Assembly (NCBI GenBank): GCA_039636785.1
Contig: CP144169.1
Span: forward strand, 1,798,001 to 1,862,000
Direction: 5' to 3'
Length of the DNA stretch: 64,000 bases
DNA from: Micrococcaceae bacterium Sec5.7
Lineage (GTDB): Bacteria; Actinomycetota; Actinomycetes; Actinomycetales; Micrococcaceae
Positions 40,556 to 40,810 of the stretch are shown here, piece by piece. Every line of letters begins with the position of its first letter. Position 1 is the first letter of the stretch. Below the pieces are notes generated by a model. It made no database searches. It was given only the letters and a program-made list of their open reading frames with translations, and was not told the origin of the DNA. A program made the translations under genes and the position numbers.

Positions 40556-40636
40556 TACAATCGGGGCCTTTTCTTTGGTTCTTATCTGAAAGGGTGGCCG
40601 GGCAACACAAACTCCGCAGCGAGGGTGGGCCTTGCG

Positions 40637-40696
40637 CTAGATCGCGTCTGAGGCCTCGCCGCGGCAGCTAAGAAGAAGCAGTTCTGCGCGCACCAT
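40637..40696 (-). CDS. leuL: leuA leader peptide
   Basis: A 19-codon frame reads MVRAELLLLSCRGEASDAI and stops 81 bp before leuA. Four leucine codons in a row (CTG CTT CTT CTT) let the ribosome sense leucyl-tRNA. Run-of-Leu leader peptides upstream of leuA are known in Actinobacteria and control it by attenuation. A TACTGT -10 box (40700-40705, minus strand) ends three bases before the ATG, so the transcript probably starts at or near the start codon. The region between leuL and leuA (40556-40636) is the likely attenuator; I could not identify a clear terminator hairpin in it. Confidence 0.75.
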   Translation of the reverse strand: MVRAELLLLSCRGEASDAI

Positions 40697-40810
40697 TTCA
40701 CAGTAACACGGGTGCGTAAGATGAAGGAGCAACACCTACAGCAACGTCCACCATACAGACGCCGCACCGGTGCCAGCGCCGGCAGCAGCCCGTTATACCA
40801 AGGAGCCTCT

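Follow-up and report, generated by a model that had tools for sequence, protein, structure and literature searches.

What does a short reading frame with a run of leucine codons do directly upstream of leuA, and by what means could it act? The frame lies on the minus strand of the window (the whole stretch of 64,000 nucleotides analysed here), 81 bp ahead of leuA and between it and a divergent M13-type peptidase gene at 40811–42763 (plus strand). The start of the latter is probably the GTG at 40811, judging from AAGGAG ahead of it, and not position 40712 of the ORF list. The name leuA for 38816–40555 follows the sequence-only reading and not an annotation. The gene, the leader and its promoter comprise the following features.

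38816–40555, minus strand: leuA, 2-isopropylmalate synthase, 579 residues, the regulated gene (LeuA protein search)
40637–40693, minus strand: leader ORF, GTG to TAG, most likely peptide MRAELLLLSCRGEASDAI (frame reading and conservation in relatives)
40670–40681, minus strand: four consecutive leucine codons CTG CTT CTT CTT (window sequence)
40700–40705, minus strand: −10 box TACTGT, with a gap of 6 nt to the leader GTG (window sequence; spacing conserved in relatives)

The frame, its distance to leuA and its four consecutive leucine codons, as given by the sequence-only reading, were recovered. The stop codon TAG ends at 40637 and leuA begins at 40555. As read from the ATG at 40696, the frame is MVRAELLLLSCRGEASDAI. 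This ATG (40694–40696) is in frame with a GTG (40691–40693) and is unconserved: in close relatives the codon ahead of the GTG is ATG, AAG, AAT, TCC, CGC, CCT or ATT (13 leaders only, counted with a strict pattern), and the GTG and the codons that follow it are constant. On this comparison, the window leader has its conserved start at the GTG (40693) and not at the ATG (40696). The TACTGT box, previously described as ending 3 nt ahead of the ATG, was confirmed, with gaps of 3 nt to the ATG and 6 nt to the GTG. Among 138 leaders (a non-redundant set in which leucine residues were demanded), 131 have a TANNNT box ending 4–9 nt before an in-frame start, against 10.8 expected from shuffling. The commonest spacing places the start exactly 6 nt past TANNNT. 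Eleven leaders have an ATG at 3 nt as well as a start at 6 nt, and in every one of them the latter is GTG. No Shine–Dalgarno sequence was found ahead of the window leader frame, as had been noted before. Because the spacing of 6 nt is conserved in relatives, the mRNA most likely begins at the first base of the GTG (a position taken from the spacing), and the peptide encoded on this leaderless mRNA is most likely the one read from the GTG. The proposal that the message starts at the leader start codon is thereby kept as regards its apparently leaderless character, and the −10 spacing and the codon variation move the start from the ATG to the GTG 3 nt downstream. For the Streptomyces lividans homologue MRFGLLLLSCRGEGL, the accessible part of PMC8079986 reports a leaderless transcript by RNA-seq.

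A LeuA protein search yielded 130 loci, and the leucine-run frame was seen at once in 121. Of the remaining nine, seven hold the element with a broken run (e.g. LLIL or TTLL), one (L084) is without it and one (L080) is without upstream DNA, such that the element is kept at 128 of the 129 leuA loci having upstream DNA. Lack of conservation of the peptide in relatives had been named in advance as an outcome that would speak against the leader; conservation was found instead. Sixty-six of these leaders were used to build a covariance model (R1). At E values up to 0.001 it matched 268 of 296 genomes from the host's class, Actinomycetes, some of which had supplied training leaders. In a phylum-wide draw R1 matched 20 of 198 genomes. 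Sixteen of the 20 belong to the class, the matches in G443 and G522 are genuine leuA leaders outside the class and within the phylum, and two weak matches fall in unrelated sequence. When the leucine filter was lifted, 180 of 182 distinct leuA upstream regions (some of them from loci fetched by R1 itself) held the element, and one of the 180 had no leucine run. The window's own genome has a single good copy by R1 search; further candidates there, with E values of 0.22 and 0.34, lie inside genes and were rejected. By LeuA, the nearest named relatives are species of Arthrobacter. In two relatives the leuA match falls in two adjoining or overlapping pieces (G018:C1:2489779-2491516 and G030:C1:1861970-1863705), from a frameshift or an assembly error. 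Second leuA copies (L199/L200, L201/L202, L203/L204, L205, L207, L208 and L215) are also preceded by the element, often with a different peptide.

The window leader is a LEU element of the kind described by Seliverstov, Putzer, Gelfand and Lyubetsky in 2005 (PMC1262725) from most Actinobacteria, a known kind to which this genome adds one further member. The published element consists of a leucine-run frame, a pseudoknot and a base stem with the Shine–Dalgarno sequence, without a terminator, and the earlier statement that leucine-rich leaders at leuA are known in Actinobacteria agrees with this description. In the window we found the leucine-run frame ahead of leuA, the pseudoknot (helices A and B) and no intrinsic terminator in the leader region. 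The 80 bp downstream of the frame had been read as showing no obvious terminator, which holds. They are not featureless: strands of the LEU element helices, supported by covariation, lie there. The paired regions are the following.

40654–40664, minus strand: helix A 5' strand CCGCGGCGAGG, within the leader frame, codons C-R-G-E (covariation)
40614–40624, minus strand: helix A 3' strand CCTCGCTGCGG (covariation)
40628–40631, minus strand: helix B (pseudoknot) 5' strand GGCC, within the helix A loop (exchange tests)
40596–40599, minus strand: helix B (pseudoknot) 3' strand GGCC, downstream of helix A (exchange tests)
40670–40679, minus strand: candidate base stem 5' strand GCUUCUUCUU, within the leucine codons (duplex with the Shine–Dalgarno region)
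40566–40575, minus strand: candidate base stem 3' strand AAGAAAAGGC, holding the leuA Shine–Dalgarno sequence AGAAAAGG at 40567–40574 (duplex with the leucine codons)

The covariation search in relatives that had been suggested gave strong results for helix A and the pseudoknot and modest ones for the Shine–Dalgarno stem. Helix A has 11 bp, and in the 66-sequence alignment 97.7% of its cells are paired, with 52 cells in which both sides have changed; none of 500 shuffles reached either its pairing percentage or its double-change count, and sliding the partner strand by 1–3 bases lowered the pairing to at most 66.4%. More matched changes are seen across the leaders, such as GTC with GGC and TGC with GCA. 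For helix B, which has four pairs only in the window, none of 1000 exchanges of strands between species paired as well as the leader's own (n = 135), and an energy exchange test on compact leaders gave z −9.5 (n = 123), both with kinship ignored. The leucine codons and the leuA Shine–Dalgarno region gave 0 of 1000 (n = 138) and z −4.2 (n = 123), again with kinship ignored; two control pairs of the 1000-exchange test showed a tendency in that direction (14 and 68 of 1000), and six other region pairs in the energy test (n = 123) had |z| up to 2.3. Two alternative switches were discarded for want of clear support, namely pairing of the leuA Shine–Dalgarno sequence with the 3' strand of the pseudoknot (z −2.1) and with the loop of helix A (z 0.0). 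Of 123 leaders, 32 have a GGCC no more than 22 nt from the leuA start, where 15 would be expected. Nine pairs and a single C-A mismatch make up the base stem of the window, a duplex of -7.7 kcal/mol that is absent from the predicted minimum-energy fold. Its presence is modestly supported.

The possibility that the leader is a chance reading frame with no function could draw on the folding stability of the window RNA, which is no better than that of shuffled sequence (z −0.30). Retention at nearly all the leuA loci and throughout most genomes of the class, with compensatory changes, leaves it practically no credence, and we regard it as ruled out by conservation. Known RNA families were considered as well. 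With Rfam 15, no family reached its gathering score for the window leader and one unrelated chance match lay below it; a T-box, a riboswitch or another Rfam family was set aside on the grounds that no curated Rfam model matched, and a classical transcription attenuator on the grounds that no terminator hairpin with a U-run follows the window leader.

The residues C-R-G/D-E/G after the leucine run are conserved, which might be expected if the nascent peptide itself arrested the ribosome in response to leucine. The third residue past the spacer after the run varies among G, D, S, C, N and V, and the opposite strand of helix A changes in step with it, such that the conservation of these residues is explained by RNA pairing and the peptide after the run is shaped by it. 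The residues ahead of the run vary widely. Arrest by the peptide is accordingly given as very improbable. The last regulatory codon is CTT in 128 of the 138 leaders.

On balance we favour, with fair though far from complete confidence, the reading in which the leader is a LEU element whose leucine codons and pseudoknot control leuA translation through the position of a ribosome. The first transcribed base would be the G of the leader GTG, where a ribosome would initiate without a Shine–Dalgarno sequence. With ample charged leucine tRNA the ribosome would complete the leader and depart, the RNA would fold into helix A and the pseudoknot, and the leucine codons would pair with the leuA Shine–Dalgarno sequence and keep leuA expression low. 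With charged leucine tRNA scarce, the ribosome would stall on the CUU codons and cover the codon run, and with it the base stem, as well as the 5' strand of helix A; the fold would then open and leuA would be translated. It is the stalling, the masking of the Shine–Dalgarno sequence and the direction of control that we infer, above all in this species; the frame, the promoter spacing, the helices with their covariation, the conservation and the matching of codons to genes are direct observations.

A simple nested folding calculation on 123 leaders (pseudoknots lie outside it) gave a mean unpaired probability of the Shine–Dalgarno sequence of 0.377 for free RNA and 0.445 with a stalled ribosome. 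Placing the ribosome on the leucine codons raised the predicted opening by more than 0.05 in 59 of the 123 and lowered it by as much in 22; with the ribosome at the stop codon the mean was 0.427, against 0.445 when stalled (p 0.08, 123 leaders). For the window leader the predicted opening hardly moves in nested folding, from 0.49 to 0.50. Masking is plausible in the leader family on these predictions; the near-absence of a predicted change in the window leader, the C-A mismatch in its stem and a fold no better than shuffled count against the favoured reading.

The published element shares with the window its leuA target, leucine run, pseudoknot, base stem and lack of a terminator, and differs in that the base stem is weaker in the window. 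Peptide-based attenuation was judged unlikely by its authors from mutations in S. coelicolor, and a binding protein was proposed (PMC1262725). According to the introduction of that paper, mutations of the S. coelicolor leuA leader had some effect, inconsistent with classical attenuation, and according to its conclusion mutations of the leucine codons were without influence on regulation (Craster et al., 1999, in both cases via PMC1262725). These reports count against sensing by the ribosome. They were read in 2005 in favour of a trans-acting protein that binds the folded element to regulate leuA, with translation of the leader incidental, and a phylogenetic match to a helicase-like protein was given as further support (PMC1262725); the fold is also more conserved than the ends of the peptide. 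A protein-binding site does not sit easily with the position of one helix A strand inside a short frame, preceded in 131 of 138 leaders by a leaderless-type promoter, nor with the codon exchange described below, and we consider this explanation unlikely.

Other leaders resemble that of the window. In the accessible part of PMC8079986, LeuL1 of S. lividans precedes leuA, has an LLLLSCRGE core like that of the window and no Rho-independent terminator, and is grouped with attenuators. Its peptide recurs in loci fetched in this analysis, and the window leader has a different N-terminus and a longer C-terminus. As far as the accessible parts of the sources go, the leuA leaders of Corynebacterium diphtheriae (PMC5784534), C. 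glutamicum (PMC4046766) and Mycobacterium tuberculosis (PMC3526491) are likewise short frames with 3–4 leucine codons; their C-terminal residues differ from those of the window leader (RRGGSQA in C. diphtheriae, PMC5784534). For M. tuberculosis, the part of PMC3526491 that was available gives leuA leader RNA bands of 85, 65 and 45 nt. Such bands would suit transcriptional control, in which the choice between read-through into leuA and either Rho-dependent termination or pausing depends on where the leader ribosome stands. A T-rich stretch past helix A in 28 of the 138 leaders and, at some leuB-side elements, a long interval before the next gene point the same way. Transcriptional control is nevertheless rather improbable, since the window has no terminator-like site, the leucine codons covary with the leuA Shine–Dalgarno sequence and the interval from helix A to the leuA start is compact (median 55.5 nt). 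Canestrari et al. in 2020 are said to have described polycysteine leaderless frames of mycobacterial cysteine operons, under a title that calls them an attenuator of operonic expression; as far as that account is available, these and the window leader are both short frames with a run of the regulated amino acid, which is cysteine there, and the window leader is apparently leaderless too.

Further evidence on what senses leucine comes from copies at other genes. Many genomes carry a second copy of the element by R1 search. PMC1262725 describes only leuA and one transposase gene as targets; in the relatives studied here the same fold also precedes leuC, a small gene beside leuB with Val, Ile and Leu codons, and second leuA copies. 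The leuC copies are eight loci of one family (L185, L189–L193, L195 and L196) with the leucine run kept. With about one genome per family, the element was found in one of 35 leuC and six of 42 leuB upstream regions. Among 49 further genomes, most of them chosen for two R1 matches, 30 have a leuB-side element; most of a set of 28 genomes and the one-per-family genomes were picked for an existing R1 match. In the 28 genomes, the inspected matches away from leuA (E up to 1) lie at leuB, at leuC, at second leuA copies or inside unrelated genes. None of these inspected matches, which include part of the weak ones, lies at a gene for another amino acid. No description of leuB-side or leuC elements of this kind was found in the open-access literature searched.

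The final leuB set has 36 leaders. Helix A is kept in all of them as a consequence of how they were found, and the codon slot was not used to find them; L352 (117-nt loop), L290 (helix strands, no start) and hits pairing at 9 of 11 positions were dropped by hand. Here the slot holds Val, Ile, Leu and sometimes Phe codons, as in MRSVFVLIDCRGEA, MRQVLVLITCRGGA and MRKQLVVIACRGGAS. Across slots −1 to −4, the leuB-side leaders (n = 36) average 2.08 Val or Ile codons each, compared with 0.07 at leuA and 0.25 at leuC. LeuB serves leucine synthesis and, in some bacteria, isoleucine synthesis too, so the mixed codons fit the pathway. The fold thus remains constant and the codon run follows the identity of the downstream gene. 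Such an exchange would be needed by a ribosome that reads codons but not by a protein-binding site, and it suggests that sensing by the ribosome is to be favoured.

The leuB-side leader frame and leuB are not adjacent: a short conserved gene of ~20–45 residues lies between them (L186, L206, L213, L216, L307, L317, L331, L345 and 28 further loci). Its product ends in motifs such as ALDRRDNGG or RPDDN. The ALDRRDNGG-type motif was found by pattern in 32 of the 36 loci, and the other four have short frames ending in PDDN, identified by eye; another pattern search for the small genes missed some that are present (L229 and L311). The gene is probably translated, because the third codon positions vary most (entropy 1.06, against 0.54 for the first and 0.26 for the second). 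No convincing match was found in Pfam and NCBIfam for nine of the small peptides tried, or in the PDB for the one tried. A separate promoter-like box is often seen at leuB by eye. In one family the next ribosome site can be ~170–330 nt from the element, which is too far for simple Shine–Dalgarno masking. Near-palindromes around GCGATCC recur in the long spacers between element and small gene in one family (L317, L321, L324, L331 and related loci; by eye). L245, L341 and L343 retain the strands of helix A and the small gene next to leuB, and their leader frame with its regulatory codons seems, by eye, to have been lost.

From these copies, we lean slightly towards regarding the LEU fold as a portable codon-reading switch, with a constant pseudoknot and an exchanged codon slot that would be pure Leu at leuA and leuC and mixed Val, Ile and Leu at the small protein on the leuB side. 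Almost every genome of the class has a LEU-type leader at leuA. The 2005 work did not settle how it acts, and no later test was found in the literature searched. The codon exchange beside leuB offers a direct one: a switch that followed the codons in the slot would make the ribosome the sensor. The copies at leuC and on the leuB side widen the known reach of the LEU element and, if the portable switch is true, it would settle the question of 2005 for sensing by the ribosome and bring to light a hidden branched-chain regulon that includes a new microprotein.
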